Assembly (NCBI RefSeq): GCF_000178155.2
Contig: NZ_ADKM02000112.1
Location: 1-44,668 of the forward strand
DNA: 44,668 bases
Source of the DNA: Hominimerdicola alba 8
GTDB lineage: Bacteria; Bacillota; Clostridia; Oscillospirales; Ruminococcaceae
Reading direction: 5' to 3'
The notes beneath the pieces were generated by a model, which saw nothing but the letters and a program-made list of their open reading frames with translations, was not told the DNA's origin and ran no database searches. The stretch's first letter is position 1. The number at the start of each line of letters is the position of its first letter. Both the position numbers and the translations under genes were made by a program. This document shows, piece by piece, positions 2 through 14,580 of the stretch.

Positions 2-673
2 CTTAAGAGCACTCTTATCAGCAAGCTGACTGTCAAGGACGAAACTTACGGCGAATACTGGTCGCTCGACAGCTACACATACGTTGGCGCAAAGGCTTTC
101 GGTGACCGTGATTTCACCATCACAACACTGCCCGATATACTTTCAGGCGCAGAGCATATCGTTACAGCATGCGACTCCAAAAAGACCGATGCTGACCTTG
201 CAGTGCTGACTGCCGCTAAGGATATCACCGTTTACGTGGCTATGGATCAGAGAAATGTGACACTTCCCGCATGGCTGGGCAGTTTCACAAAGACAGGCTA
301 TATTCTGGGCGTGACCGACGGCGATGGCGAAAAGCCTTTCGATGTTTACGCTATCGACCTTAAGGCAGGTTCATCGCTTACACTTGGCACAAACGGCATG
401 ATGGGCTCAGTAATGGGCTACACAGCATTCGTCACCGAGTACAAAGAGCCTGCACCTGTAAAGGAAGTCGGCGTGCGCGGCGATGCAAACTGCGACGGCA
501 AGGCAGACCTCTTCGATGCGATACTCGTTGTGCAGTATCTCGCAGACCCCTATAACTCCGCTATCAGCGAACAGGGCAAGCTGAATGCCGATGTTGTGGG
601 CGATAACGGTCTTACAAGCGAAGATGCACAGCAGATACAGAAGTTTGTGACAGGTCTTGTAACAGAACTTTGA
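2..673 (+). CDS. Dockerin-containing extracellular protein, 3' end only
   Basis: The reading frame is open from base 2, so the 5' part lies outside the window and about 223 C-terminal residues are visible. The C-terminal 65 residues form a type I dockerin: two Ca-binding loops of the kind GDANCDGKADLFDAILVVQY and NADVVGDNGLTSEDAQQIQK, which anchor an enzyme to a cohesin in a cellulosome. In front is a module (VTVYVA-like stretch, then PAWLGSFTKTGY, then a FDVYAIDLKAGSSLTLGTNG run) of the type that often sits between catalytic domain and dockerin in pectin- or rhamnogalacturonan-degrading proteins. The catalytic domain is not in view, so the substrate cannot be named. The protein should be secreted. 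A strong terminator follows directly. Confidence 0.85.
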   Translation, partial: LKSTLISKLTVKDETYGEYWSLDSYTYVGAKAFGDRDFTITTLPDILSGAEHIVTACDSKKTDADLAVLTAAKDITVYVAMDQRNVTLPAWLGSFTKTGYILGVTDGDGEKPFDVYAIDLKAGSSLTLGTNGMMGSVMGYTAFVTEYKEPAPVKEVGVRGDANCDGKADLFDAILVVQYLADPYNSAISEQGKLNADVVGDNGLTSEDAQQIQKFVTGLVTEL

Positions 674-1014: not shown

Positions 1015-1043
1015 TTGACCTTTTCTCACTTTTCGGCTAAACT
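1015..1043 (+). promoter_or_regulatory. metY promoter
   Basis: TTGACC-N17-TAAACT. It lies just downstream of three operator-like palindromes and gives a leader of roughly 190 nt before the metY start. Confidence 0.68.
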
Positions 1044-1237
1044 ATAGTCAAACCAAAATATGGTTATCCCGCTGACACACTGAATTATATCGAAAATTGA
1101 AATAGTATGCGGTCATCTTCCCCTGCCGCATGCGGGGGGAAGATAACATCAGCACAATGTTTCCTTGTTATACAGCGCTTTGCGGCAGTGTGCTAAAGGG
1201 ATTATCATAAATCACAAACCGAAAGGAAATGATAAAC
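1044..1237 (+). other. metY 5' leader with a strong hairpin
   Basis: The leader contains a stable hairpin, ATCTTCCCC (1115-1123) pairing with GGGGAAGAT (1136-1144) around a 12-nt loop. It also carries a copy of a repeated 18-20-mer (GGTTATCCCGCTGACACAC near 1062). No SAM-I, SAM-II or T-box consensus was recognised. The hairpin has no T-run, so it is not an obvious terminator. Confidence 0.5.
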
Positions 1238-2527
1238 ATGGCAGAACTCAGATTTGATACCAGAAAGATAAAGGCAGGCTACAGCCCAGCCGACAACAAT
1301 CAGGCGATATCGCCACCCATTTACCAGACAGCCGCTTATGATTTCAGAGATACCGAGCATGCGCAGAATCTCTTCACCTATAAGGAAGCAGGCTACCTTT
1401 ACACCCGCGTGGGCAACCCCACCGTCAACTACTTTACCGAGCGTGTAAAAGCCCTTGACGGTGCAAAGAACGGTCTTGCGGTAGGTTCGGGCATGGCGGC
1501 TATAACCTACACACTGCTGAACCTTGCATCTAAGGGCGGCACTATACTGGCATCGCCCTACCTATACGGCGGCACTATCGATGCTTTCGACAGACTGTTC
1601 CCCGAACTTGGCATAAAGATAAAGCTGACAGATGCAGTGCTCGACCCCGAAAAACTTGAAAAAGAACTGACTGATGATGTCAAGGCGGTGTATGTTGAGT
1701 CGATATCCAACCCAAACGCATATCTGCTTGATATCGACAGCATTTCTGATGCCGCACATAAACACGGTGTACCTGTGGTAGTTGACAACACACTTGCCAC
1801 ACCATACCTTTACAGACCTTTCGAGCATGGCGCTGATATCGTTGTCTACTCGGCTACTAAGGCACTGACAGGTCATGGCAACCTTATCGCGGGACTGATA
1901 CTTGACAACGGCGATATGAGCCTTTACACCAAAGAGCGTTATCCGCAGTTCTATGAGCCTATCGTGATGCTCAAAGGCAAAGCGCCCGCAGACATATTTG
2001 CTGACAACTTCTTCATTTTCCGCGCGACACTGGTATACCTCAACCTGCTGGGTGCGGCGCTGTCACCGCAGGACGCATATCTAGGCATCATTGGCATAGA
2101 AACACTTTCCGAGAGAGTAGCAAAGCAGTCGGCAAACGCGGCAAAGATAGCGGCATACCTTGAAAGTTTGCCCGCAGTCGAATGGGTGCGCCACCCCAGT
2201 CTTAAAAGCTACAAGTTCCGTGAACTGGCTGAGAAGCATCTCACCAACGGCGGCGGCGGAGTACTGAGCTTCGGCATAAAGGGTACACCTGAGCAGGAAG
2301 CGGCATTCCTCAACAATATCAAGCTGTTCCACTACCATGTAAATCTGGGTGATGCGCGTTCGCTGATAGTTGACTCGCCAAACACCACTCACAGTGAACT
2401 GAATGAAGAAGAGTTTGTACTGGCAGACATTCCTAAGAATCTTATCCGCATTTCTGCGGGACTTGAAGATGCAGACGACCTTATAGCCGACCTTGAACAG
2501 GCATTTTCAGCGGCGGGGCTTTTGTAA
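1238..2527 (+). CDS. metY: O-acetyl-L-homoserine sulfhydrylase (MetY type)
   Basis: A 429-residue PLP enzyme of the Cys/Met metabolism family. It condenses O-acetylhomoserine with sulfide or methanethiol to give homocysteine or methionine. The length of about 430 residues and the insert after the PLP lysine favour MetY over the 380-residue cystathionine enzymes. Visible motifs are YTRVGNPT (55-62), the substrate/PLP stretch GSGMAA (83-88), VVDNTLATPYLYRPFEHGAD (181-200) and the Schiff-base lysine in SATKALTGHGN (K208). An ATG at 1229 is possible, but AAAGGA at 1222-1227 is correctly spaced only for the ATG at 1238. Upstream are three operator-like palindromes. Together with the nitrogenase-like genes 3' of it, this could be the acceptor for methanethiol made by a C-S reductase. 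Its TAA stop is the first part of a TAATTCA repeat array. Confidence 0.92.
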   Translation: MAELRFDTRKIKAGYSPADNNQAISPPIYQTAAYDFRDTEHAQNLFTYKEAGYLYTRVGNPTVNYFTERVKALDGAKNGLAVGSGMAAITYTLLNLASKGGTILASPYLYGGTIDAFDRLFPELGIKIKLTDAVLDPEKLEKELTDDVKAVYVESISNPNAYLLDIDSISDAAHKHGVPVVVDNTLATPYLYRPFEHGADIVVYSATKALTGHGNLIAGLILDNGDMSLYTKERYPQFYEPIVMLKGKAPADIFADNFFIFRATLVYLNLLGAALSPQDAYLGIIGIETLSERVAKQSANAAKIAAYLESLPAVEWVRHPSLKSYKFRELAEKHLTNGGGGVLSFGIKGTPEQEAAFLNNIKLFHYHVNLGDARSLIVDSPNTTHSELNEEEFVLADIPKNLIRISAGLEDADDLIADLEQAFSAAGLL

Positions 2528-2961
2528 TTCATAATTCATAATTCATAATTCATAATTGTTGGCAGGGTCGAAAGTGAGTTGGTTCAGCGGAAAAGAGAGC
2601 GAACCATGACGCGGACAAAGTGAGAATAGAACACAAAGCTATGCGCGAGTCGAGCTTTCCGTCCACCCTTTCGCGAAAGGGTGGCGGGAGTTTGAGGGCA
2701 GAGCCCTCAATCACCGAAGTGCAAAACCAAAATGCACATCAAACAATAAGAGCAAAGCAAAACGTGGTTATCCCGCTGACACACCACAAAAACGGCGTTT
2801 TTACAAAACTAAAGGTGGTTGGCATAAGCGCGGGAATGCGTGAAACTGCAAGGCGGGGGCGGCAGGCGCTCTCGCCTTTTGCATGGAAGTCTTGACAGAC
2901 AGGACAGAAAAGCAGGTAAAATTATATCGCATAACCCGCATTATTCTAAAAATTTACAATT
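2525..2961 (+). repeat. Intergenic mosaic element E1 after metY
   Basis: It begins with TAATTCA heptamers (four copies plus TAATT, 2525-2557), the first of which supplies the metY stop codon. The body contains a perfect 22-nt palindrome at 2663-2684 (CCACCCTTTCGCGAAAGGG plus TGG), a second hairpin GAGGGC-AGA-GCCCTC at 2694-2708, and a 48-bp segment (2762-2809) repeated in inverse orientation at 18871-18918. No convincing gene is seen; the short open frame at 2620-2895 lacks a ribosome binding site and is probably spurious. Confidence 0.72.
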
Positions 2962-2966
2962 TGCCC

Positions 2967-2995
2967 TTGACAAACAGGTCTAACTGCGGTATAAT
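2967..2995 (+). promoter_or_regulatory. Consensus promoter of the LacI-family gene
   Basis: TTGACA-N17-TATAAT, a perfect vegetative sigma-A promoter. No TGATAACGTTATCA site overlaps it, so autoregulation through that site is not suggested. Confidence 0.92.
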
Positions 2996-3040
2996 CATAC
3001 TATTCTAATATGTTAACTATGGTAAAGCGAGGTGAGTGTA

Positions 3041-4114
3041 ATGTCATTGAAAAAAATAGCACAGATGACAGGCGTGTCGGTATCAACAGTTGGCAGGATA
3101 CTCAGTGACCCGAACCATAAATGTGCCGATGAAGATGTCAAGCGAAGAGTACTTGAAGCCGCGAGGTCGATAAACTATATCCCGAACTCTTACGCTAGGT
3201 CGCTGAGGTCGGGCGGTGTCAGCGATGACAGGATATACCGCGTGAACATACTGATGACCAGATATGTGCATGAATCAGCAGACCCATTCTATGACGAACT
3301 GCTGATGATACTAGAAAAGGAACTGCGCAACAGCAGCTGCATCATCGGGCATGTGTGGCATTATGCAGAATTTTCCGACGAAAAGATAAGCAAGTCCGAC
3401 AAGATACAGAAACTTGCAGATGAACTCTACCCGGAAGGCGCAGAGCGTTCTGACGGACTGATAATAATAGGCAAGGTAACGGTGCGGGCACTAAGAATAC
3501 TAAAAAGCAGAGAGAAGAACATCATTTCGATAAACCGCAATTCTACCAACTACGAAGCCGATGAAGTTCTGTGTGACGGCAGGCGCATCGCACAGACTGC
3601 TGTTGCTTATCTGGTAAGGCTGGGTCATACTAAGATAGGATATGTCGGTGACTGTCACAGCGAATCGCGCTTTGCAGGCTATCAGGCAGCAATGACGGGC
3701 AGTCATCTCTCACCCGATATCGACCATATCTACGACACACTGCCCAACGAGGCGGGCGGTATCGCGGCGGCAGAGTATTTCAGCGAACTTGATGACCCGC
3801 CGACAGGTATCTATTGTGCGAATGATATACTCGCGGTCGGTATGCTAAAAGCGCTGGGCAGGCGGCGTACAAGGGGTTATATGCCGTCGGTTATATCCAG
3901 TGATGATATCGAAGCCGCCCAGTACACCAAACCGATGCTGACAACCATATCTCTGCCAAAGACCGAGATGGTGCGCTTTGCACTGATGCTGCTGCTCGAC
4001 CGCATAAAGGGCGGTCACAAGATAGTTTCACGGCTGGAGGTCGAAGGTACGCTGGTCATACGTGAGAGCTGTCAGCCTTACGGCGAGATGAATGAACCTG
4101 AGTACTACATCTGA
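3041..4114 (+). CDS. LacI/GalR-family transcriptional regulator
   Basis: A 357-residue regulator. Residues 1-60 are a LacI-type helix-turn-helix (SLKKIAQMTGVSVSTVGRIL) with the hinge helix NSYARSLRSGG, whose Leu normally inserts into the central CpG of the operator. Residues 65-345 form a periplasmic-binding-protein-like effector domain (GHTKIGYVGD, GIYCANDILAVGMLKALG, SSDDIEAAQYTKPMLTTI). A GTG at 3032 is possible, but AGGTGA at 3030-3035 is correctly spaced for the ATG at 3041. It stands alone between metY and mccB with its own consensus promoter and terminator, and TGATAACGTTATCA-type palindromes precede both neighbours, so it is inferred to control them. Most family members bind sugars or purines. 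The ligand here is unknown, and a regulatory link to sulfur supply would be unusual. Confidence 0.9.
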   Translation: MSLKKIAQMTGVSVSTVGRILSDPNHKCADEDVKRRVLEAARSINYIPNSYARSLRSGGVSDDRIYRVNILMTRYVHESADPFYDELLMILEKELRNSSCIIGHVWHYAEFSDEKISKSDKIQKLADELYPEGAERSDGLIIIGKVTVRALRILKSREKNIISINRNSTNYEADEVLCDGRRIAQTAVAYLVRLGHTKIGYVGDCHSESRFAGYQAAMTGSHLSPDIDHIYDTLPNEAGGIAAAEYFSELDDPPTGIYCANDILAVGMLKALGRRRTRGYMPSVISSDDIEAAQYTKPMLTTISLPKTEMVRFALMLLLDRIKGGHKIVSRLEVEGTLVIRESCQPYGEMNEPEYYI

Positions 4115-4159
4115 GAGAGTATAGTTCCTCTTATCCCATACATTACAGCGACCCGCCTT

Positions 4160-4197
4160 AAAAAGAATGACGCACTTCTGCTGTCATTCTTTTTTTT
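4160..4197 (+). terminator. Terminator of the LacI-family gene
   Basis: AAAAAGAATGAC (4160-4171) pairs with GTCATTCTTTTT, followed by a run of T. The A-rich left arm means it may also work in reverse. Confidence 0.92.
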
Positions 4198-4205
4198 AGC
4201 TTTAG

Positions 4206-4219
4206 TGATAACGTTATCA
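4206..4219. promoter_or_regulatory. LacI-family operator O1 of mccB (perfect palindrome)
   Basis: TGATAACGTTATCA, perfectly symmetric. Its centre is 88 bp from the next site. Confidence 0.8.
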
Positions 4220-4293
4220 TGTGACAGCGTAAAAATCACGCTGTTTTTGCCCGCTTTTGCATTACAGCAACGGCTAAACACGGATATATCAGG

Positions 4294-4307
4294 TGACAAC
4301 GTTATCA
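4294..4307. promoter_or_regulatory. LacI-family operator O2 of mccB
   Basis: TGACAACGTTATCA, one change from the perfect palindrome. Its centre is 114 bp from the proximal site. Confidence 0.78.
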
Positions 4308-4407
4308 TTCAAACGGCTGTGTAAACAGTATGTTCAAAAGAATTTACCATGATAAACTATTTTGAACCTAAAAAAGACCTTCTACAGTGCTGAAACAATG
4401 TGTGTGA

Positions 4408-4421
4408 TGACAACGTTATCA
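4408..4421. promoter_or_regulatory. LacI-family operator O3 of mccB, next to -35
   Basis: TGACAACGTTATCA, ending exactly 10 nt before the -35 hexamer. An operator centred about 52 bp upstream of the expected start site is more typical of activation or looping than of simple blocking. Confidence 0.8.
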
Positions 4422-4431
4422 CCTTTTTGCG

Positions 4432-4460
4432 TTGACATTACGGGCTTTTTGCAGTACAAT
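4432..4460 (+). promoter_or_regulatory. mccB-mccA-nifX-nifB promoter
   Basis: TTGACA-N17-TACAAT, immediately after the third operator. Confidence 0.88.
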
Positions 4461-4510
4461 ACATACATAACATAGATAACAACTAGGAATTGTATGAAAG
4501 GAAGATGGAT

Positions 4511-5668
4511 ATGAGTTACAATAATATAGAAACTGCACTGATACACGGCGGCATCTCAATTGACGAACGCACAGGTGCGGTGAATGTGCCCATCTACCAG
4601 ACCTCGACTTTCAAGCAGGACGGTCTTGGCAAGATGAGGGGATATGAATATTCCCGCACAGGCAATCCGACCAGAGAAGCACTCGAAGCCCTCATCGCTG
4701 AACTGGAGGGCGGATATGCAGGTTTTGCATTCGCAAGCGGTCTTGCGGCTGAAACTGCGGTGCTGAGTCTGCTTCACACAGGTGACAGGGTGCTGATATC
4801 CTCAAATGTTTACGGCGGTACTTTCAGGCTTTTAAATCAGGTGTTCGACCACTTCGGCATAAACTACACCATATCAGATACCGAAGACCCCGCCGCTTTT
4901 GAAAAAGATATCACCGATGATGTTAAAGCGGTGCTGATAGAAAGCCCCGCCAATCCGCTGATGACCATAACTGATATCCGCGCAGTGGCAGACATCGCCC
5001 ACAGACACGGTCTGCTGGTGATAGTAGACAACACTTTCATGACCCCCTACCTGCAAAGACCTATCGAACTGGGTGCAGATATAGTCGTACACAGCGCCAC
5101 AAAATATCTCGGCGGACACAGCGATGTGGTGGCAGGTCTGGCAGTAGTCAAAACTAAGGAACTGGCTGAGAAACTGGCGTTCATACAGAATTCCACAGGC
5201 GGTGTACTGCCGCCGTTCGACAGCTTCCTGCTGATACGCGGCATAAAGACACTGGGCGTAAGACTTGACAGACATGTTGAAAATGCAGTGGCGGCGGCTG
5301 AATACCTGTCAGCGAACGAAGCAGTCAAGAGCGTGCATTATCCCGGACTTCCCACCGACAAGGGCTATGAAGTCAACAAGCGTCAGGCTAAGAACGGCGG
5401 TGTGATGATAAGTTTTGAACTGACTGAAGGTCACGACATAGAAAAGTTTTTCGAGAGCCTTGAACTGATTACGCTGGCAGAAAGTCTGGGCGGTGTTGAA
5501 TCGCTGGTATGCCACCCCTCTACCATGACCCACGCATCTATCCCCGAAGAGATACGCAAAAAGGTTGGCATAACCGATGGGCTGATAAGACTTTCGATAG
5601 GCATTGAAAATATCAGCGATATACTGGCTGACCTTGAAAAGGCAATAAAAGCAAGTGAGGTAAAGTAA
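4511..5668 (+). CDS. mccB: Cystathionine gamma-lyase / gamma-synthase family enzyme
   Basis: A 385-residue PLP enzyme of the Cys/Met metabolism family. It shows YSRTGNPTR (48-55), FASGLAAETA (74-83) and the PLP lysine in SATKYLGGHSDVVAG (K198). The length fits cystathionine gamma-lyase (MccB) or gamma-synthase (MetB); sequence alone does not separate them. The gene directly downstream is a CysK/MccA-type enzyme with a 1-nt gap, which resembles the Bacillus mccA-mccB reverse transsulfuration pair and favours cystathionine gamma-lyase, running methionine/homocysteine sulfur to cysteine. AAAGGAAG (4497-4504) is correctly spaced for the ATG at 4511; TTG 4490 and ATG 4505 are less likely. It is the first gene of an operon that continues into nifX1 and nifB and is controlled by the three-operator region. 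Confidence 0.85.
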   Translation: MSYNNIETALIHGGISIDERTGAVNVPIYQTSTFKQDGLGKMRGYEYSRTGNPTREALEALIAELEGGYAGFAFASGLAAETAVLSLLHTGDRVLISSNVYGGTFRLLNQVFDHFGINYTISDTEDPAAFEKDITDDVKAVLIESPANPLMTITDIRAVADIAHRHGLLVIVDNTFMTPYLQRPIELGADIVVHSATKYLGGHSDVVAGLAVVKTKELAEKLAFIQNSTGGVLPPFDSFLLIRGIKTLGVRLDRHVENAVAAAEYLSANEAVKSVHYPGLPTDKGYEVNKRQAKNGGVMISFELTEGHDIEKFFESLELITLAESLGGVESLVCHPSTMTHASIPEEIRKKVGITDGLIRLSIGIENISDILADLEKAIKASEVK

Positions 5669-5669
5669 T

Positions 5670-6575
5670 ATGAGATATGAGTCGATGCACGAACTTATCG
5701 GACATACGCCGCTGGTAAGGCTCAAAAATATGGGGGTCGCCCCCGAAGTGAAGATATATGCAAAACTGGAGATGTACAACCCCTCAGGCAGTGTGAAAGA
5801 CCGTATAGGTGAGTATATGATAGCCGCTGCCGAAAAAGAGGGCAGGCTGAAAGCGGGCGGCACTATAATAGAAGCCACCGCAGGCAATACGGGACTGGGC
5901 ATTGCATTCGCAGCACTTGGAAAAGGCTACAGAGTGATATTTACAGTCCCCACAAAGTTCTCGGCTGAGAAGCAGGCGCTTATGCGTGCGCTTGGCGCTG
6001 AGGTGATAAACACTCCCCGCGCTGAAGGCATGCTGGGGGCTGTAAGAAAGGCAGAAGAGTTGAAAAGTCAGATAGAAGGCTCGATATCCCTCGAACAGTT
6101 CAAGAACAGATATAACCCCCTTGCCCACTATGAAACTACGGGCAAAGAGATATATGATGACCTTGACGGCAGGCTCGACTATCTTGTGGCAGGCGCAGGA
6201 AGCGGCGGTACGTATTCGGGTATCGTCAGGTATCTGAAAGAACATAACGATAATATAAAAGGTGTCCTCGCTGACCCTGAAGGCTCGACCATCGGCGGTG
6301 GCGAACACTTCGACTACAACATCGAGGGCATCGGCAACGACTTTATACCCGAAACGATGGATATATCCCTCGTAGACAAGGTGATAAAGGTGAATGACGA
6401 AGAGGCGTTCAGCACAGTGCGCGCCCTTGCTAAGAACGAGGGCATAATAGCAGGTTCGTCATCGGGGGCGGCTATGGCTGCGGCGATAAAGCTGTCAAAG
6501 GAGATAGACAGCGGAACTATAGTCGTGGTCTTCCCCGACAGAGGCGACCGCTATTTCAGCACAGGGCTGTTCTGA
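5670..6575 (+). CDS. mccA: Cysteine synthase / cystathionine beta-synthase family (MccA-like)
   Basis: A 301-residue fold-type II PLP enzyme that uses O-acetylserine or serine with sulfide or homocysteine. The PLP lysine is in NPSGSVKDRIG (K43), and the phosphate-binding/substrate loop reads ATAGNTG (69-75). The variant TAGNTG and the following VPTKFSAEKQALMRALGA stretch resemble MccA-type enzymes more than biosynthetic CysK (TSGNTG). The SGG-type asparagine loop near 210 (EGSTIGGGEHFDYN) and the final GDRYFSTGLF are also typical. No CBS regulatory domain is present. The start codon follows the mccB stop by 1 nt and is served by GAGGTAA within mccB, so the two are translationally coupled. CysK activity cannot be excluded. 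Confidence 0.82.
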   Translation: MRYESMHELIGHTPLVRLKNMGVAPEVKIYAKLEMYNPSGSVKDRIGEYMIAAAEKEGRLKAGGTIIEATAGNTGLGIAFAALGKGYRVIFTVPTKFSAEKQALMRALGAEVINTPRAEGMLGAVRKAEELKSQIEGSISLEQFKNRYNPLAHYETTGKEIYDDLDGRLDYLVAGAGSGGTYSGIVRYLKEHNDNIKGVLADPEGSTIGGGEHFDYNIEGIGNDFIPETMDISLVDKVIKVNDEEAFSTVRALAKNEGIIAGSSSGAAMAAAIKLSKEIDSGTIVVVFPDRGDRYFSTGLF

Positions 6576-6592
6576 CAAACGGAGAAGTATAT

Positions 6593-6964
6593 ATGATATT
6601 CAAGATAGCGATAGCAAGCAGCGACGGCGTTCGGACAGACAGGCATTTCGGGCAGGCAGATGAGTTCTGCATATACAGCCTTGACACCGAAAAGGAAGAC
6701 TGTGAACTGCTGGGCAAAAGAGAAGTCTGTCCCGCCTGTCACGGCGGCGAACATCAGGTCGGCAGTTTTGACGATGTACTGGCGGTACTGGAAGATGTAT
6801 CTGCGGTCGTGGCACAGCGGGTGGGCTACGGTGCTGAGAGTTACCTGAAAAGTCACGGCAAAGCAGTATACCAGATACCGCTGGACATCGAAGAAGCGCT
6901 GTGCAGACTGCTTGAAGAAAAACGATGGGAGGCAGACAAATGGCAGTTACATACGAAGAACTGA
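6593..6964 (+). CDS. NifX/NafY-like iron-molybdenum cofactor carrier domain protein (copy 1)
   Basis: A 123-residue single-domain member of the dinitrogenase iron-molybdenum cofactor biosynthesis family (NifX, NafY, C-terminal part of classic NifB). The family signature is the N-terminal IAIASSDGVRTDRHFGQADE, with the conserved HFG, followed by AVVAQRVGYGAESYLKSHG. Members bind NifB-co or the finished cofactor and pass it on. A CPACHGGEH stretch (about 47-55) adds two cysteines and two histidines that could bind metal. GGAG precedes the ATG by a normal distance. It overlaps nifB by 25 bp. In many diazotrophs this domain is fused to NifB; here it is the preceding separate gene. Confidence 0.87.
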   Translation: MIFKIAIASSDGVRTDRHFGQADEFCIYSLDTEKEDCELLGKREVCPACHGGEHQVGSFDDVLAVLEDVSAVVAQRVGYGAESYLKSHGKAVYQIPLDIEEALCRLLEEKRWEADKWQLHTKN

Positions 6965-7813
6965 CGACAAAGCACCCGTGCTTCGCGAGAGGTGAACACA
7001 GCAGCAACGGGCGGATACATCTTCCTGTAAGCCCCACATGCAACATCGAATGCCGCTTCTGTGAGAGAAGCATAAACAGCTATGAGAACCGTCCCGGTGT
7101 GGCAGCAACGGTCATACGCCCTGAGGAAGCTGCAAAAGCTGTGGAAAAGGCACTGGAGTTATGCCCCGAAATAAAAGTGGCAGGCATAGCGGGTCCAGGC
7201 GATACTCTGGCGAGCAACTGTGCGCTGCGCACATTCGGGCTGATAAAAGAAAAGTTCCCGCAGCTTGTAAAGTGCATGAGTACAAACGGTCTGCTGCTGG
7301 CTGAAAAGGCGCAGGAGGTCATAGATGCGGGCGTTGACTCGCTGACAGTGACGGTCAATGCGGTAGACCCCGAGATAGAAGCAAAGCTGAACGCAGGCAT
7401 AAGCTGGCACGGCAAACACTACGAGGGTGTCGAAGCCGCAAAGATACTGATAGAACAGCAGATAAAAGGCATAAAGCTGGTCAGTGATGCGGGCATGACC
7501 GTCAAGGTGAACACGGTGCTTGTGCCCGGTATAAATGTGGATCATATCGGTGAGATAGCCCGCACAGTGGCAGAAGCGGGTGCGAGCATATACAACATAA
7601 TCCCGCTGATACCTCAGCATCAGCTGAAAGACTGTCCGCCGCCTACCTGCGAGGAGATAGAGGGCGCGATACGTGCGGCACAGGAGTATATTGATGTGTT
7701 CCGACACTGCCACCGCTGCCGTGCCGATGCGGTGGGTATACCTGGCGGCAAAGACTTCGGTGATGAAGTCTATATGCAGAGGCTTTCCGCGAAAGATACT
7801 TTTTCACATGGAT

Positions 7814-7815
<2 letters not shown>
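6940..7815 (+). CDS. nifB: NifB-like radical SAM protein (FeS cofactor precursor synthase)
   Basis: A 291-residue protein lacking the C-terminal NifX domain of proteobacterial NifB. The radical-SAM cluster motif is CX3CX2C in SPTCNIECRFCER (C34, C38, C41). NifB-specific features are HPC near the start (C14), NRPGV (50-54), GIAGPGDTLAS and the C-terminal HCHRCRADAVG. NifB fuses two 4Fe-4S units with a SAM-derived carbide and sulfur into NifB-co, an Fe8S9C cluster and the precursor of nitrogenase cofactors. GGGAGG at 6926-6931 sets the ATG at 6940; the ATG at 6925 lacks a site. A NifB next to a NifH/D/K-like set with no nifEN implies that the neighbouring reductase may carry a NifB-co-type cluster. 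Confidence 0.92.
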
Positions 7816-8915
<1,100 letters not shown>

Positions 8916-8918
<3 letters not shown>

Positions 8919-9181
8919 TTCATAATTCATAATTCACAATTCATAATTGTTGACATGCACGATAGCTCGGCACATTTGACGCAAATCTTTGCAAACAAAG
9001 GTGAGTAGGGCGGGTGGCGTTCGCGACCGTGTCGGCGTTTTTCCCGCTGTTTGATTGGCTAAGCTGCGCAAGCACAAACACAATTTCCAAAAAATCATGA
9101 CAAAGAGCGACCCGCGCAACATCAGCAAAGCTGATGTTTGGGGTATGAGGGCTGTGCCCCCATTTAAGATAGGAGTTTAAA
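8916..9181 (+). repeat. Intergenic mosaic element E2 between nifH and nifD
   Basis: Starts at the nifH stop codon with TAATTCA heptamers (8916-8948, one degenerate). It ends with hairpin AACATCAGC-AAA-GCTGATGTT (about 9119-9139), a second hairpin GGGC-TGT-GCCC and the sequence AAGATAGGAG, which is the nifD ribosome binding site. The same right end precedes proB. No gene is seen. The hairpins may reduce transcription between nifH and nifD. Confidence 0.75.
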
Positions 9182-10651
9182 ATGAGTAAAGTAAATCTTA
9201 ATATACCTGAGGTCGAAATACGTGAGATACGCCTTAATTCGATAACGGGTTTTCAGGGAACTGCTAAGGAACTGGTAGATGCCTGTTCCGCATGCGGAGG
9301 AAAAATGAAAGACAAGAACAGGTCTTTCAGCCAGTGTCTTGGCTGCGGAACTTCAAATGCTGCCTGCACACTTACACTTATTCAGGACGCTGCGATAATC
9401 TCACACGGTCCTGTGGGCTGTTCGACCTGCCTGCATGAATTTGCCTTCACTTACAGGGTGAATGCTTATCTCAGACAGCTGGAACACCCGACACAGAGAA
9501 AGATATTCTCTACCAATCTGGAGGAAAAGGACACCATCTACGGCGGCGCGAAAAAGCTGGAAGCCGCTATCAGAGAGGTGCATAAAAGGGCAAAGCCAAA
9601 GGCGATATTCGTCATAACCACCTGCGCGGCAGGCATCATCGGTGATGATGTGGAAAGTGTCACAAATGCAGCACAGAAAGAACTTGGCATACCTGTTGTG
9701 GCAGTCTTCTGCGAGGGATTCAGGTCTAAGATGTGGACTTCGGGCTTTGATGCGGGCTATCACGGCATCGCAAGGAAGATAATCAAGCCTGCAAGACAGA
9801 AGAGGAATATCATCAATGTCATAAACTTCTGGGGCAGTGATATTTTCAGGGAGTGGTTCGCTGAATTCGGCTATGAACCAAACTATATCACACCATTTGC
9901 AACGGTGGACAGCCTCAGCTATTCCAGCGAGGCGGCGCTGACCATACAGGCATGTTCGACACTGGGCAGTTATCTCGGTGCAGCGCTGGAACAGGGCTTC
10001 GGTGTGCCTGAGATACGCAATTCGCCCCCTTACGGCATAGCACAGACCGACCGCTGGTTCAGGGAACTGGGTCAGATATTGGGCAAGGAAAAGGAAGCCG
10101 AAGAATTCCTCGCACGCAAAAAAGCTGAGTATATGCCGAAAATAGAGGCTCTGCGCGAAAAGCTGAAAGGCAAGACCGCTTATGTTACAGCGGGCGCTTC
10201 TCACGGTCATTCACTGCTGGCACTGCTGAAAGAACTGGGCATGGAAACTCAGGGCGCGGCTATATTCCACCACGACCCCAAATACGACAACGAGGACGAA
10301 CGTGCCGACACCCTCAGCCATACAGTTGCAGACTACGGCGATGTGCCGAATTACAATGTCTGCAACAAGCAGGAGTTTGAACTGGTCAATGTACTCAACC
10401 GCATACGCCCCGACATATTGCTTGCGCGGCACGGCGGCATGACCCTCTGGGGCGCTAAACTGGGCATACCCTCACTGCTGGTGGGCGATGAACATTTCGG
10501 CATGGGCTATGAGGGTCTTGTGGCATACGGCGAACGTATACTTGAAACTATCGAGAATGACGAGTTTGTAAAGAACCTTGCAAAGCATTCTGTCAACCCC
10601 TATACAAAATGGTGGCTTGAACAGGAGCCGTACACATTTTTAGGAAAGTAA
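9182..10651 (+). CDS. NifD-like catalytic subunit of a group IV nitrogenase-like reductase
   Basis: A 489-residue homologue of nitrogenase component 1 alpha. Probable P-cluster cysteines are C55 (or C62), C80 (SHGPVGCS) and C148 (ITTCAAGIIGDD). The cofactor cysteine (alpha-Cys275 of Azotobacter) aligns with C258 in ACSTLGSYLGAALEQGFGVP. By hand alignment on CEGF (C177) and on GYEG, alpha-Gln191 is Trp185, alpha-His195 is Phe189 and the His442 position is Leu near 432, with another His at 438 (GDEHFG). These are residues required for N2 reduction, so dinitrogenase activity is not expected. An extra pair C35xxC38 and C52xxC55 lies near the N terminus. The sulfur-gene context supports a C-S cleaving reductase related to MarD. 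GGAG serves the ATG at 9182. It is followed 14 nt later by the NifK-like gene. Confidence 0.82.
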   Translation: MSKVNLNIPEVEIREIRLNSITGFQGTAKELVDACSACGGKMKDKNRSFSQCLGCGTSNAACTLTLIQDAAIISHGPVGCSTCLHEFAFTYRVNAYLRQLEHPTQRKIFSTNLEEKDTIYGGAKKLEAAIREVHKRAKPKAIFVITTCAAGIIGDDVESVTNAAQKELGIPVVAVFCEGFRSKMWTSGFDAGYHGIARKIIKPARQKRNIINVINFWGSDIFREWFAEFGYEPNYITPFATVDSLSYSSEAALTIQACSTLGSYLGAALEQGFGVPEIRNSPPYGIAQTDRWFRELGQILGKEKEAEEFLARKKAEYMPKIEALREKLKGKTAYVTAGASHGHSLLALLKELGMETQGAAIFHHDPKYDNEDERADTLSHTVADYGDVPNYNVCNKQEFELVNVLNRIRPDILLARHGGMTLWGAKLGIPSLLVGDEHFGMGYEGLVAYGERILETIENDEFVKNLAKHSVNPYTKWWLEQEPYTFLGK

Positions 10652-10665
10652 AGGAGTAATAATAT

Positions 10666-12006
10666 ATGGCAGGACTTATAGAACAAGAGCGCTACACCTG
10701 CGCTATAGGTGCTTTGCAGACGGTGGTCGCTATCCCACGCGCGGTGCCGATACTTCATTCGGGACCGGGCTGCGGAGTTATGATAAAGGGCTTTTTTGAG
10801 AGAGCCTCAGGCTATGCGGGCGGCGAAACTGCACCCTGCACCAATTTCAGCGAAAAAGAGGTCGTCTTCGGCGGCACTGACAGGCTCAGGAATATCATAA
10901 AGAACACCTACAAAGTGCTGGACACCGATCTTCAGGTGGTAGTAACAGGCTGTACCGCAGGCATTGTGGGCGATGATGTTGCAAGTGTAACAGATGAATT
11001 TCTCTGGGAAGAGGACAGACCCATCGTGCATGTGGAAACTTCTGGCTTCAAATCGAACAACTATGTTTCGCATTCGGCGGTGGTAAATGCGATAATCGAC
11101 CAGTATGTCAGCCGCTTTGAAGAGGAAAATCCCGCAAGGAGCGAGAAGAACTTAGTCAATGTATTTGCATCTATCCCTTATCAGGATCAGTTCTGGAAAG
11201 GCAACCTGAAAGAGTACAAGCGCCTGCTGGAGGGTCTGGGATTGAAGGTCAATATCCTCTTCGGACCGCATTCACGCGGCGTTAAGGAGTGGCAGACCAT
11301 ACCTAAGGCGAATTTCAACGTGTTCGTATCTCCCTGGTACGGTGAGCCGATAGTAAAAAATCTTGAAAGAAAGTACGGTCAGCCGTACTATCAGTTCGGT
11401 TACCTGCCCATCGGTGCCAACGAAACCACCAAGTTCCTGAACGGAGTGCTGGAATACGCCATAGAACAGGGCGCAGGCATCGATGAGATAAAAGCCCGCG
11501 CATTCATAGCTGAGGAAGAAAGAGCCTACTATGAAGAACTTGATAATCTGGCGACATTCCTGCTGGAATTCAGATACGGTCTGCCAAGCTATGCGCATGT
11601 ACTGCATGATGCGGGATATGTGGTCGGTCTGACAAAGTTTTTGCTGCATGAAACAGGCGTGATACCAAAAGAGCAGTTCATAGTGGATAATGTTCCCGCC
11701 AAGTATCAGGAGAAGATAGCTGAGGAGATACGCTCGGTATCGGACAAGCGCGAGATACCCGTATACTTCGACCCCGATGCGGGCGCTATGCAGGACGTTA
11801 TCAGGGGGCTTGACAACAAGGGCAGAGCGCTCATACTGGGAAGCGGCTGGGATAAGGAACTTGCCGCAGAGATAGGCGGTGATTTCCTCTCCATCGCATG
11901 CCCGACACCTTACCGCATCGTGCTGACTACGAACTATGTGGGCTACACAGGCGGTCTGCGGGTGATAGAGGACATCTACAACACTGCCCTTGCGACATAC
12001 AAGTAA
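10666..12006 (+). CDS. NifK-like beta subunit of a group IV nitrogenase-like reductase
   Basis: A 446-residue component 1 beta homologue, expected to form an alpha2beta2 complex with the preceding protein. P-cluster cysteines are C12 (YTCAIGA), C36 (SGPGC) and C96 (VTGCTAGIVGDD), matching NifK Cys70, Cys95 and Cys153. It lacks the long N-terminal extension of Mo-nitrogenase NifK, so the first P-cluster Cys is only 12 residues from the start. GTGCTAGIVGDD-VASV and SGFKSN match the component 1 fold. AAAGGAG precedes the ATG. All six P-cluster ligands across the D/K pair are kept, unlike protochlorophyllide and chlorin reductases, which use an NB-cluster. This favours the methylthio-alkane-reductase-like branch. 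NifN would be an alternative label, but no second D/K pair is present. Confidence 0.83.
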   Translation: MAGLIEQERYTCAIGALQTVVAIPRAVPILHSGPGCGVMIKGFFERASGYAGGETAPCTNFSEKEVVFGGTDRLRNIIKNTYKVLDTDLQVVVTGCTAGIVGDDVASVTDEFLWEEDRPIVHVETSGFKSNNYVSHSAVVNAIIDQYVSRFEEENPARSEKNLVNVFASIPYQDQFWKGNLKEYKRLLEGLGLKVNILFGPHSRGVKEWQTIPKANFNVFVSPWYGEPIVKNLERKYGQPYYQFGYLPIGANETTKFLNGVLEYAIEQGAGIDEIKARAFIAEEERAYYEELDNLATFLLEFRYGLPSYAHVLHDAGYVVGLTKFLLHETGVIPKEQFIVDNVPAKYQEKIAEEIRSVSDKREIPVYFDPDAGAMQDVIRGLDNKGRALILGSGWDKELAAEIGGDFLSIACPTPYRIVLTTNYVGYTGGLRVIEDIYNTALATYK

Positions 12007-12031
12007 AACGGCATCTGAAAGGACTGATATC

Positions 12032-12352
12032 ATGGCAAAAGTCGCAGTTGCAACATCTGACGGTTTCACTGTCAATGAACATTTCGGGCATGCACAGTTT
12101 TTTCGTGTCTACGAGCTGAATGCTGACGGCTATGAATACGCGGGCATACGTGATGCGGTGGCTGTCTGTCAGCAGGCACTCGGTCATGACACCACCCGCT
12201 TTGACAAGATAATAGAACTGCTGTCCGACTGTGATGCGGTTCTTGTCAACCGCATCGGTGAGGGTGCGGCGGCGTACCTGATCGAACGGGGAGTGCGCGT
12301 CTTCGAGGTAAGCGGCACTATCGACGCGGTGCTGACACGGCTGAAACTGTAG
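12032..12352 (+). CDS. NifX/NafY-like cofactor carrier domain protein (copy 2)
   Basis: A 106-residue single-domain protein of the same family as the one at 6593. The N-terminal signature VAVATSDGFTVNEHFGHAQF keeps the HFG motif, and the middle reads ADAVLVNRIGEGAAAYL-like (CDAVLVNRIGEGAAAYLIERG). It ends the nif-like operon, 25 bp after the NifK-like gene; AAAGGA precedes the ATG at 12032. It lacks the CPACHGGEH stretch of copy 1, so the two may act at different steps, for example accepting NifB-co versus holding or protecting the apo-reductase. Confidence 0.85.
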   Translation: MAKVAVATSDGFTVNEHFGHAQFFRVYELNADGYEYAGIRDAVAVCQQALGHDTTRFDKIIELLSDCDAVLVNRIGEGAAAYLIERGVRVFEVSGTIDAVLTRLKL

Positions 12353-12380
12353 AGGTTATTTGTTGATATTTTATATAATT

Positions 12381-12416
12381 GCGTGGGCGGTCCGCAGTAC
12401 CGTCCGCGCTTTTTTA
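12381..12416 (+). terminator. Terminator of the nifH-D-K-X operon
   Basis: An 11-bp GC-rich stem (12381-12391 with 12400-12410, two wobble pairs) followed by T6. Confidence 0.92.
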
Positions 12417-12768: not shown

Positions 12769-14580
12769 ATGAAAAGCAACTTTAAGAAAGTTATCTCGAC
12801 ATTTGCCGCACTTGCTGTAACAGCGGCTTCTTATACGGCTGCTATGCCTGTGGGCGCTGTGGGCAGCGGCAATGCTGATACTTTCCCTTACACCATCGAA
12901 GCTGAGGACATGGAAGGCGCATCTGTCTGGACGAACAATTACGGTCCTGCACCCAAGAATACTTCGGGCGAGGGCTTTTTCTACCTGACAGGCGGCTCGG
13001 CTTCATTTACCGTTACTGTCCCTGAGGACGGCATGTATACCATCACCGCAAGGTGTGCACAGGTGCTCGATAAGAACGGCAGACAGGAGTCGATCGCGGT
13101 AAACGGCATCAAGCGCATGAAGAATATGCCTTATTCCGAAGAATGGGTGGATTTCAGCTTCGGCAGCTTCCGCCTTAACAAGGGTGTCAACACCATCGAG
13201 TTCATAAACGAATACGGCTACATGGCTATAGATACAGTCACAGTAAGCGCTACACCAAAGCATGATTACACACTGGCAGAAGGCACGCTGACCGACAAGA
13301 ACGCTACCCCCGAAGCTAAGTCGCTGATGGCTTATCTGAAGAGCGTTTACGGAAGCCACATCATCGCAGGTCAGCAGGAGATATACGGCGGCGGTCACGG
13401 CGGCAACTATGAGTGGGAGAACGAGTATCTCAAAGACCTGACAGGCAAAGTGCCCGCTATCAGGGGCGTTGATTTCATGAACTACAACCCGCTGTACGGC
13501 TGGGACGACGGCACTACCGAGCGCTGCATCGAGTGGGCTACCGAGCGCGGCGGCATCGTCACTGCATCGTGGCACATAAATGTTCCCAAGGATTTCAAAA
13601 ACTACACTCTGGGTGACAGGCTGGACTGGAAAGAATGCACCTACAAGAACTATCAGAGCGGTGAAGGCTCTAAGGACTTCGATACAAGGAACGTAGTCAT
13701 CGAGGGCACTAAGGAGTATGAGTACTTCCAGCTGGCGATAAAAGACCTCGCCGCACAGCTTACCAGACTTCAGGACGCAGGTGTGCCTGTTATCTGGAGA
13801 CCTCTTCACGAAGCACAGGGCAACGAGGGCAACTACTCTGACGGTACAGCATGGTTCTGGTGGGGCGACAGAGGCGCTGAAACATACAAGCAGGTATGGA
13901 AGCTGCTCTACACCACACTGACCGAAGAGTACGGTCTGCACAACCTGATATGGGAATTCAACAGCTATGACTACACCAATTCCGCTTCATGGTATCCGGG
14001 CGATGATTATGTAGATATCGTGGCATATGATAAGTACAATGTTGAGTACAACAGAGGTGACGGCAAGTCAAGCGGTCCTAACCTGCTGGCTATACCTGCA
14101 AAGTTCGATGCACTGTATGCACTGACAAACGGCAAGAAGATGGTCGCTATGGCTGAGAACGACACCATTCCCGCACTGGATAATCTGGTCGTTGAGGACG
14201 CAGGCTGGCTGTACTTCTGCCCCTGGTATGACGGCGGCAACGACGGCGGCACAGCATTTCTCGGTGCAGCATATCAGGACTTTGATGAACTGAAAAAGAT
14301 CTATCAGAGCGATTACTGCATCACTCTTGATGAACTGCCTGTTGACCTCTACACAAACGGCGGCAGCACACCTGTACCCGTACAGGTCGAGAAGCTGATC
14401 GGTGATGCTAACTGCGACGGCAAGGTGGATACTTTAGATGCAGTGCTGGTAATGCAGTACCTTGCAAACTCGAAGAACTATCCGCTCACCGAACAGGGCA
14501 AGGCAAATGCAGATGTTGACGGTAACGGGATCAGCAGCAGCGATGCTCAGGCTATCCAGAAACTCGCTATAGGCGGCTGA
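12769..14580 (+). CDS. Secreted CBM35-GH26 beta-mannanase with dockerin
   Basis: A 603-residue modular enzyme. Residues 1-30 are a signal peptide (KSNFKKVIS, hydrophobic core, GAVG). Residues 39-162 are a CBM35-type module (TIEAEDMEG, FINEYGYMAIDTVTV). Residues 170-525 are a glycoside hydrolase family 26 barrel. The acid/base is E348 in WRPLHEAQG and the probable nucleophile is E463 in MVAMAEND; IRGVDFMNYNP and GIVTASWH are also typical. After a short Pro/Val linker, residues 543-603 are a type I dockerin (GDANCDGKVDTLDAVLVMQY, ADVDGNGISSSDAQAIQK). The predicted role is endo-hydrolysis of beta-1,4-mannan outside the cell, held in a cellulosome through cohesin binding. AGGAGG precedes the ATG. 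It is transcribed alone. Confidence 0.93.
   Translation: MKSNFKKVISTFAALAVTAASYTAAMPVGAVGSGNADTFPYTIEAEDMEGASVWTNNYGPAPKNTSGEGFFYLTGGSASFTVTVPEDGMYTITARCAQVLDKNGRQESIAVNGIKRMKNMPYSEEWVDFSFGSFRLNKGVNTIEFINEYGYMAIDTVTVSATPKHDYTLAEGTLTDKNATPEAKSLMAYLKSVYGSHIIAGQQEIYGGGHGGNYEWENEYLKDLTGKVPAIRGVDFMNYNPLYGWDDGTTERCIEWATERGGIVTASWHINVPKDFKNYTLGDRLDWKECTYKNYQSGEGSKDFDTRNVVIEGTKEYEYFQLAIKDLAAQLTRLQDAGVPVIWRPLHEAQGNEGNYSDGTAWFWWGDRGAETYKQVWKLLYTTLTEEYGLHNLIWEFNSYDYTNSASWYPGDDYVDIVAYDKYNVEYNRGDGKSSGPNLLAIPAKFDALYALTNGKKMVAMAENDTIPALDNLVVEDAGWLYFCPWYDGGNDGGTAFLGAAYQDFDELKKIYQSDYCITLDELPVDLYTNGGSTPVPVQVEKLIGDANCDGKVDTLDAVLVMQYLANSKNYPLTEQGKANADVDGNGISSSDAQAIQKLAIGG

Follow-up and report, generated by a model that had tools for sequence, protein, structure and literature searches.

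Gene content of the locus

The window analysed here is a stretch of 44,668 nucleotides from Hominimerdicola alba 8 (contig NZ_ADKM02000112.1), and this study concerns a cluster of ten genes within it in which the components of a nitrogenase-like reductase lie among enzymes of methionine and cysteine metabolism. The ten genes span positions 1229-12352, all on the + strand, in the order metY, LacI-type regulator, mccB, mccA, nifX, nifB, nifH, nifD-like (D), nifK-like (K) and nifX (Table 1). Family calls were made from Pfam and NCBIfam profile matches to the translations in the open reading frame (ORF) list. The Pfam families found were Cys_Met_Meta_PP (two genes), LacI, PALP, Nitro_FeMo-Co (two genes), Radical_SAM/NifB, Fer4_NifH and Oxidored_nitro (two genes), so that the order, the strand and the family of each gene agree with the initial annotation, which had been made from the sequence alone. 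The tight junctions that it had described from mccB to nifB also hold: mccB and mccA are separated by 1 base pair (bp) and mccA and nifX by 17 bp, and nifX overlaps nifB. D and K are likewise close (14 bp); wider gaps separate nifB from nifH (about 245 bp) and nifH from D (263 bp). K overlaps the last nifX if the listed TTG start is used and lies 25 bp from it with the alternative ATG. Comparison with relatives places the start of mccB probably near 4511 and favours an ATG at 8061 for nifH, whose listed ORF starts at 8007.

Table 1. Genes of the cluster, with their coordinates in the window and the basis of each call.
Feature	Position	Strand	Basis
metY, O-acetylhomoserine sulfhydrylase-type pyridoxal phosphate enzyme	1229..2527	+	PF01053 5e-117
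LacI-family regulator	3032..4114	+	PF00356/PF13377
mccB, cystathionine gamma-lyase/homocysteine lyase type	4490..5668	+	PF01053 4e-153
mccA, cysteine synthase/cystathionine beta-synthase type	5670..6575	+	PF00291 9e-77
NifX-like cluster carrier 1	6593..6964	+	PF02579 8e-16
NifB-type radical SAM enzyme	6925..7815	+	Pfam Radical_SAM/NifB
NifH-type Fe protein	8061..8918	+	TIGR01287 460 bits, above cut-off
Catalytic D subunit, Nfa (group IV-A) clade	9182..10651	+	structure-database search, residue alignment, D tree
Catalytic K subunit with three P-cluster cysteines	10666..12006	+	MarK 9d9u_C 8e-117
NifX-like cluster carrier 2	11990..12352	+	PF02579 4e-21; alternative ATG at 12032

The best solved relative of MetY was an O-acetyl-L-homoserine sulfhydrylase (7kb0, 7e-115), and those of MccB were a cystathionine gamma-synthase (4l0o, 5e-136) and a bifunctional cystathionine gamma-lyase/homocysteine desulfhydrase (7d7o, 2.5e-132). 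MccA scored above the cut-off of the cysteine synthase profile TIGR01136, with 5xw3 and 5b1h as its best solved relatives; dependence on O-acetylserine is a trait of MccA enzymes. NifB has all seven cysteines that are common to 17 aligned NifB proteins.

Catalytic subunits and their Fe protein

The closest solved protein to D was the methylthio-alkane reductase (MAR) of Rhodospirillum rubrum (1e-132, against 8e-39 for the best nitrogenase), and K was closest to MarK, with a nitrogenase as the next match (1.5e-15). Identity to the R. rubrum subunits was 41% for D and 43% for K, and it rose to 71 and 64% for NfaD and NfaK of Endomicrobium proavitum. Still closer relatives of D were found in R. 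albus KH2T6 (96.7%) and in the uncultured Ruminococcus metagenome-assembled genome RUG10798 (99.6%), which places the host in Ruminococcus. In a D tree of 60 selected rows, drawn from a larger number of matches, Nif, Vnf, Anf and NifE were separated from the window D by a 100/100 split. The window D and E. proavitum NfaD were placed together in a 14-row clade (100/100) that, once Chlorohelix and Heliophilum are added, comprises 17 rows (100/100), R. rubrum MarD was placed in a separate 10-row clade (100/100), and both lie within a clade of 41 rows (100/99). Judged by its sequence, the window D is therefore a member of the Nfa (group IV-A) clade, sister to MarD (group IV-C). An AlphaFold model of D, built from 35 sequences of the clade and its sister clade (mean predicted local distance difference test score 86.6), superposed on MAR 9fmg with template modelling scores of 0.91/0.95 and a root-mean-square deviation of 2.0; the scores against nitrogenases were about 0.7.

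The initial annotation had considered that D and K might group inside true nitrogenases or with the coenzyme F430 enzymes CfbCD, and neither grouping was found. Canonical nitrogenase was rejected for D by the 100/100 split and by a Gly in the column of the cofactor His, and for K by sequence search only. CfbCD, the F430 cyclase, has a homomeric D and no K, whereas the window has a separate K gene and its D reached 50 bits against TIGR03282 (cut-off 268).

Residues were compared in MarD numbering in 78 D proteins of the clade and 79 K proteins from the same loci, after the offset had been verified by the alignment of nine out of nine published residues. Cys258, Arg416 and His417 of the window D correspond to MarD Cys270, Arg428 and His429, and its Met184 and Thr63 to MarD His194 and Gln74. 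Cys66, Cys73, Cys91, Cys158, Trp195, Phe199, Cys270, His375 and Arg428 were present in all 78 D proteins and His429 in 77, the remaining one having Pro; the three P-cluster cysteines of K were found in 79 out of 79. From the MAR pocket, the window D thus keeps Trp195, His375, Phe199 and Cys73 and replaces His194 by Met and Gln74 by Thr. Throughout the 78 proteins, position 194 is Val, Met or Ile and position 74 is Met, Thr or Val. The cofactor His of nitrogenases (Av NifD His442) is present in the seven NifD or alternative nitrogenase rows aligned; the D proteins of the window, E. proavitum and MAR have Gly instead. At the positions of NifD Gln191 and His195, the window D carries Trp and Phe, like MAR. 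The Arg428-His429 pair has been named a possible hallmark of MAR in the text of PMC12552129. It should be noted that the pair is common to 40 of the 41 rows of the wider clade, and it would therefore indicate cluster binding rather than MAR itself.

The window set shares with MarBHDK of R. rubrum the cluster ligands, the Arg-His motif, the six P-cluster cysteines, the B-H-D-K composition and the fold, and it also has a metY nearby. Together with the identities given above, these features would agree with a plain MAR acting on the R. rubrum substrates 2-(methylthio)ethanol, dimethyl sulfide and ethyl methyl sulfide and yielding methanethiol plus ethylene, methane or ethane. We regard such an enzyme as unlikely here. 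The two D proteins fall in separate 100/100 clades, for which membership in MarDK proper was rejected; position 194 is His in all 10 rows of the MarD clade and in none of the 78 window-clade proteins; the Fe protein is not of the MarH type; and mccAB are part of the window operon, unlike that of R. rubrum. In addition, the same genome encodes a closer MarDK on contig C129, whose D is 56% identical to R. rubrum MarD, which would make the window enzyme redundant. The Mar identity offered by the initial annotation was consequently not retained. Since His194 and Gln74 are replaced and amino-acid- or sulfonate-type transporters stand beside many of the relatives, the data suggest that the substrate differs from that of R. 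rubrum MAR.

Regarding the Fe protein (H), the window protein matched the nitrogenase Fe protein 1cp2 at 7e-139 and MarH (9fmg_D) at 6e-83. Its identity is 79% to the NifH encoded in the nif cluster of Acetobacterium tundrae, compared with about 49% to E. proavitum NfaH. An H tree was made from 52 selected rows that leave out most Ruminococcus sequences and R. rubrum MarH. One lineage (11 rows including one Pectinatus locus, 100/97) comprised E. proavitum, Spirochaetes, Chlorohelix, H. fasciatum, Sinanaerobacter, a Bacillota metagenome-assembled genome and Coriobacteriales; the other (39 rows, 99/96) joined the window and further Clostridia nfa loci with 12 canonical NifH, and an inner group of 28 rows in it was weakly supported (83/63). 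On these comparisons, nfa loci use two H lineages, and the window H is nitrogenase-type, outside the MarH and E. proavitum NfaH lineages. Because the H partner is a nitrogenase-type NifH in the window and in many Clostridia, nifH surveys can miscall these bacteria as diazotrophs. A text on Cluster III NifH describes gut bacteria, among them Ruminococcaceae bacterium AE2021, with a NifD that lacks a histidine and keeps the cysteines, as in E. proavitum (PMC4995403); the residue is printed there as His422 and is taken here to be the cofactor His.

Neighbourhood across the clade and host genome

The surroundings of the clade were surveyed in the best 80 of at least 571 loci, on named genome contigs; neighbour proteins were clustered after relaxed ORF calling, and single gene starts are approximate. 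For some counts the sample was restricted to a non-Ruminococcus set, obtained by removing loci L084-L110 and L113 (28 of the 80), and further to the 35 loci of that set with at least 12 kb of DNA. A MetY/MccB-type gene was found at 61 of the 80 loci, an MccA-type gene at 45 and nifB at 53. Genes of the metY, mccB or mccA types occurred, across several phyla, at 30 of the 35 non-Ruminococcus loci and at none of 13 canonical nif/vnf/anf loci (Fisher 4e-8, with rows that are not independent because of kinship). Among the 50 non-Ruminococcus loci with D and K, 16 had a PF01053-type gene immediately next to D or K on the same strand (median gap 28 bp), and 30 had a transporter permease. The transporters near clade members were of the NMT1/Ssu-like and NlpA (MetQ-like) types, the latter shown at L162. 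The initial description of a nitrogenase-like enzyme in a methionine and cysteine setting, liable to be annotated as nitrogen fixation, is in agreement with MAR as the nearest solved relative, the conserved MAR ligands and the split of D from nitrogenases.

The gene order of the window recurs at many Ruminococcus loci (for example L084, L086, L089 and L095), and at others (L091, L094, L099, L104 and L106) permease-type transporter genes upstream replace metY. The LacI-family regulator was found at 22 of the 80 loci and at none of the 35. At the E. proavitum locus (L208) the order is metY, transporter, D, K, a small ORF, nifX, mccB, mccA, nifB, nifX and nifH, H being the seventh gene after K, in accordance with the accession numbers given in PMC9147875, and two of the three PF01053 genes of this organism are located in the nfa cluster. 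The Nfa system of E. proavitum, which has also been assigned in Heliophilum fasciatum, is thus like that of the window in its D clade and in its metY, mccB, mccA, nifX, nifB and nifH neighbours, and unlike it in the H lineage and in having a transporter where the window cluster has a LacI regulator. In H. fasciatum (L259), D starts 9 bp after metY, and K, nifH, a cysteine-synthase-type gene and nifB come next; this D corresponds in position to NflDK1, the proposed nitrogenase of that bacterium.

As for regulation, the locus L162 of Sporanaerobium hydrogeniformans contains an S-adenosylmethionine (SAM) riboswitch at 4989-5097 (92 bits, cut-off 44), followed by a terminator-like hairpin recognised by eye and by an operon with the order ATPase, permease, NlpA, nifH, nifX, nifB, D, K and aminotransferase. 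A second SAM riboswitch (90 bits) precedes metY in the same organism. A T-box at L139 was considered as an nfa regulator and discarded, since it lies ahead of tryptophan-synthase-like genes instead.

Other members of the wider group were also observed. A plasmid of Candidatus Chlorohelix allophototropha (Chloroflexota; L228:1-14782) carries an nfa-clade BHDK set that is annotated as nitrogenase; a transporter and a gene of the O-acetylhomoserine sulfhydrylase type lie close to it. Pectinatus haikarae (L212, L215) has 15 PF00148 matches, with a canonical-looking nif set and consecutive Mar-family DK pairs with transporters; one DK set at L215 has its own H, and its D, on a long branch, has none of the cluster cysteines in the alignment.

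The host genome (98.8% complete) encodes three Mar-family DK pairs, those of the window, contig C129 and contig C13. The window NifB is its sole NifB-like radical SAM match and the window NifH its one close NifH, two further and more distant NifH-like genes being both located on contig C75. We therefore infer that the three DK pairs share the window NifB and NifH. No NifEN-like pair was recognised among the 11 PF00148 matches of the genome, four of which, on C75, were left unclassed. The C129 pair (L009:9266-15177) is accompanied, by eye, by an NMT1-type substrate-binding protein, a permease and a LysR-like regulator, with no B or H of its own nearby. The C13 pair (L010:1425-9136) is more distant, has the K-D order and lies with nifX, a cysK-type gene, an NMT1-type transporter and, by eye, a flavin-reductase-like gene; its D has the His and lacks the Arg of the Arg-His motif. 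On C75 (17782-25545; L011:7783-15546), a HydE-like radical SAM gene recognised by eye stands ahead of two gene sets, each made up of a NifH-like gene and two nitrogenase component 1-type genes, and the group adjoins hypF/hypC-like genes, also by eye.

Of 29 genomes of the genus, 22 had the window-type D (full length in 20 and in fragments in two), three the C129 type and five the C13 type. In 24 of the 29, D also gave weak matches (about 18-26% identity) that may be C75-like. In an even draw of the family, 16 of 297 genomes had a D match at 1e-60 or better, eight of them with at least 94% identity, and in an even draw of the phylum 14 of 398 had one at 1e-40 or better. Outside the operon, two ORFs with dockerin-like tails flank it at window positions 203-673 and 12769-14580 (by eye). 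The second appears by eye to encode a secreted glycoside-hydrolase-like protein, which fits a fibre-degrading Ruminococcus.

The SsuABC/TauABC-like (NMT1) transporters near many clade members would be consistent with a sulfonate reductase that, like isethionate reductase (Isr), releases sulfite. According to the text of PMC11423573, IsrBHDK is also a nitrogenase-like system that cleaves C-S bonds for sulfur assimilation. We consider this reading highly improbable. IsrD is described there as keeping one of three P-cluster Cys and neither FeMo-co ligand, with no counterpart of Cys275, and IsrB as nearest to BciD and not NifB-like, whereas in the window clade all three P-cluster cysteines of D are conserved along with Cys270 and the window B has all NifB cysteines; on that published description of Isr, an Isr identity was rejected. 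Furthermore, no NIR_SIR-domain sulfite reductase was found in the host genome, R. albus KH2T6 or E. proavitum (H. fasciatum had five matches), so that released sulfite would have no obvious use. The PAPS reductase family had one match in the host genome and also matched in 14 of 14 control genomes, which makes the match uninformative.

Proposed sulfur-salvage function

In view of the above, we propose, with a probability of about 0.7, that this operon codes for an anaerobic group IV-A (Nfa) reductase for sulfur salvage, predicted to be a C-S reductase with an [Fe8S9C] cluster that feeds MetY and then MccA/MccB. NifB would make the [Fe8S9C] cluster, the NifX-like proteins would carry it, and D would hold it, by analogy with MAR, through Cys258 and His417. 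The nitrogenase-type NifH and ATP would pass electrons through a P-cluster between D and K, as the conserved ligands indicate, and the cluster would then reductively cleave a C-S bond in its substrate, a small organosulfur molecule that is most likely an S-methyl thioether. The thiol released would be methanethiol more probably than sulfide. From what is known of their families, MetY would join this thiol to O-acetylhomoserine to give methionine (or homocysteine), and MccA and MccB would pass the sulfur on to cysteine. The initial annotation had proposed MAR-like chemistry that supplies methionine and then cysteine; the sulfur part of that proposal is supported, and the label Mar is not.

Several observations weigh against this function. 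Within the window, MetY reached 460 bits against TIGR01326 (cut-off 495) and NifB 268 bits against TIGR01290 (cut-off 344), the NifH is nitrogenase-type, no transporter adjoins the operon, and an Rfam scan found nothing above threshold and no SAM riboswitch. Across the clade, a SAM riboswitch was present in only one of the 35 loci scanned, and sulfur genes were not found at five of the 35 non-Ruminococcus loci of at least 12 kb (L115, L118, L143, L151 and L153) within the DNA examined. Chlorohelix and H. fasciatum, in the widened clade, keep Gln74, and the change at this position is therefore not clade-wide. The remaining objections come from the literature. The text of PMC9147875 reports that E. 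proavitum takes up 15N2 and that its Nfa genes are its only nif-like genes, and N2 fixation by this species is also cited in the texts of PMC11257099 and PMC4995403. H. fasciatum is described as diazotrophic, with acetylene reduction and without a classical nitrogenase, and as growing with sulfate as sole sulfur source (text of PMC9147875). Being experimental, the 15N2 uptake of E. proavitum and the diazotrophy of H. fasciatum weigh against a role in sulfur metabolism only.

These reports speak for a true group IV nitrogenase, in which N2 reduction by Nfa would take place on an Fe-only cluster, the sulfur genes serving cluster building or adjoining the Nfa genes for another reason. NfaDK are the enzymes proposed for both organisms (text of PMC9147875), the window NifH would fit such an enzyme, and NifEN and NifB carrying the [Fe8S9C] cluster can reduce N2 (text of PMC13245594). 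The last result would make a low N2-reducing side activity of Nfa possible. As with the Mo, V and Fe nitrogenases, the window has a NifB, the P-cluster cysteines and a NifH (64-79% identical to theirs); unlike them, it has a D beyond the 100/100 split, Gly in place of the cofactor His and Trp and Phe in the columns of Gln191 and His195, and its host has no recognised NifEN pair. Purified MAR, with the same ligands, formed no 15NH4+ and did not reduce N2 (text of PMC12552129). The neighbourhood contrast with canonical nif loci also argues against a nitrogenase, as does the presence, in five of 13 genomes, of separate canonical-looking nif genes alongside clade members, assigned by score and arrangement (a four-gene nif set in four of them, and in G718 only a pair on a short contig). 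Besides, rumen N2 fixation has been reported to be negligible, with low nifH expression in sheep (PMC6776011). We therefore judge a true nitrogenase to be quite improbable.

The sulfur-salvage reading may extend beyond the window. It seems slightly more probable than its opposite, when all its parts are taken jointly, that the entire Nfa clade consists of C-S reductases that serve the methionine pathway and act on a substrate of their own; that gut and rumen Clostridia pair this enzyme with a nitrogenase-type Fe protein, so that gut diazotrophy deduced from nifH is partly sulfur salvage; that one NifB and one NifH serve three host reductases (contigs C25, C129 and C13); and that the 15N2 uptake reported for E. 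proavitum either reflects a side reaction of the [Fe8S9C] cluster or has been wrongly assigned. In the text passages surveyed from the literature on Mar, Isr and Nfa (including PMC9641968), figures and supplements being outside this scope, neither the methionine and cysteine neighbours of Nfa nor its pairing with a nitrogenase-type NifH is described.

If the proposed function is correct, these genes would represent a second subfamily of [Fe8S9C] C-S reductases, and a nitrogenase-type Fe protein would be paired with a sulfur enzyme. The status of E. proavitum as a nitrogen fixer without a classical nitrogenase would then need re-testing, as would the prediction for H. fasciatum that relies on it. 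Surveys that count nifH in the rumen and in termite and human guts would partly be counting sulfur enzymes; 23% of 501 rumen genomes were scored as nitrogenase-positive by NifH (PMC6776011), a set that may include the window type. The finding would also point to a source of methanethiol, and perhaps of small hydrocarbons, in the rumen, and whether MAR-type clusters fix N2 in vivo would become directly testable in cultivable bacteria.

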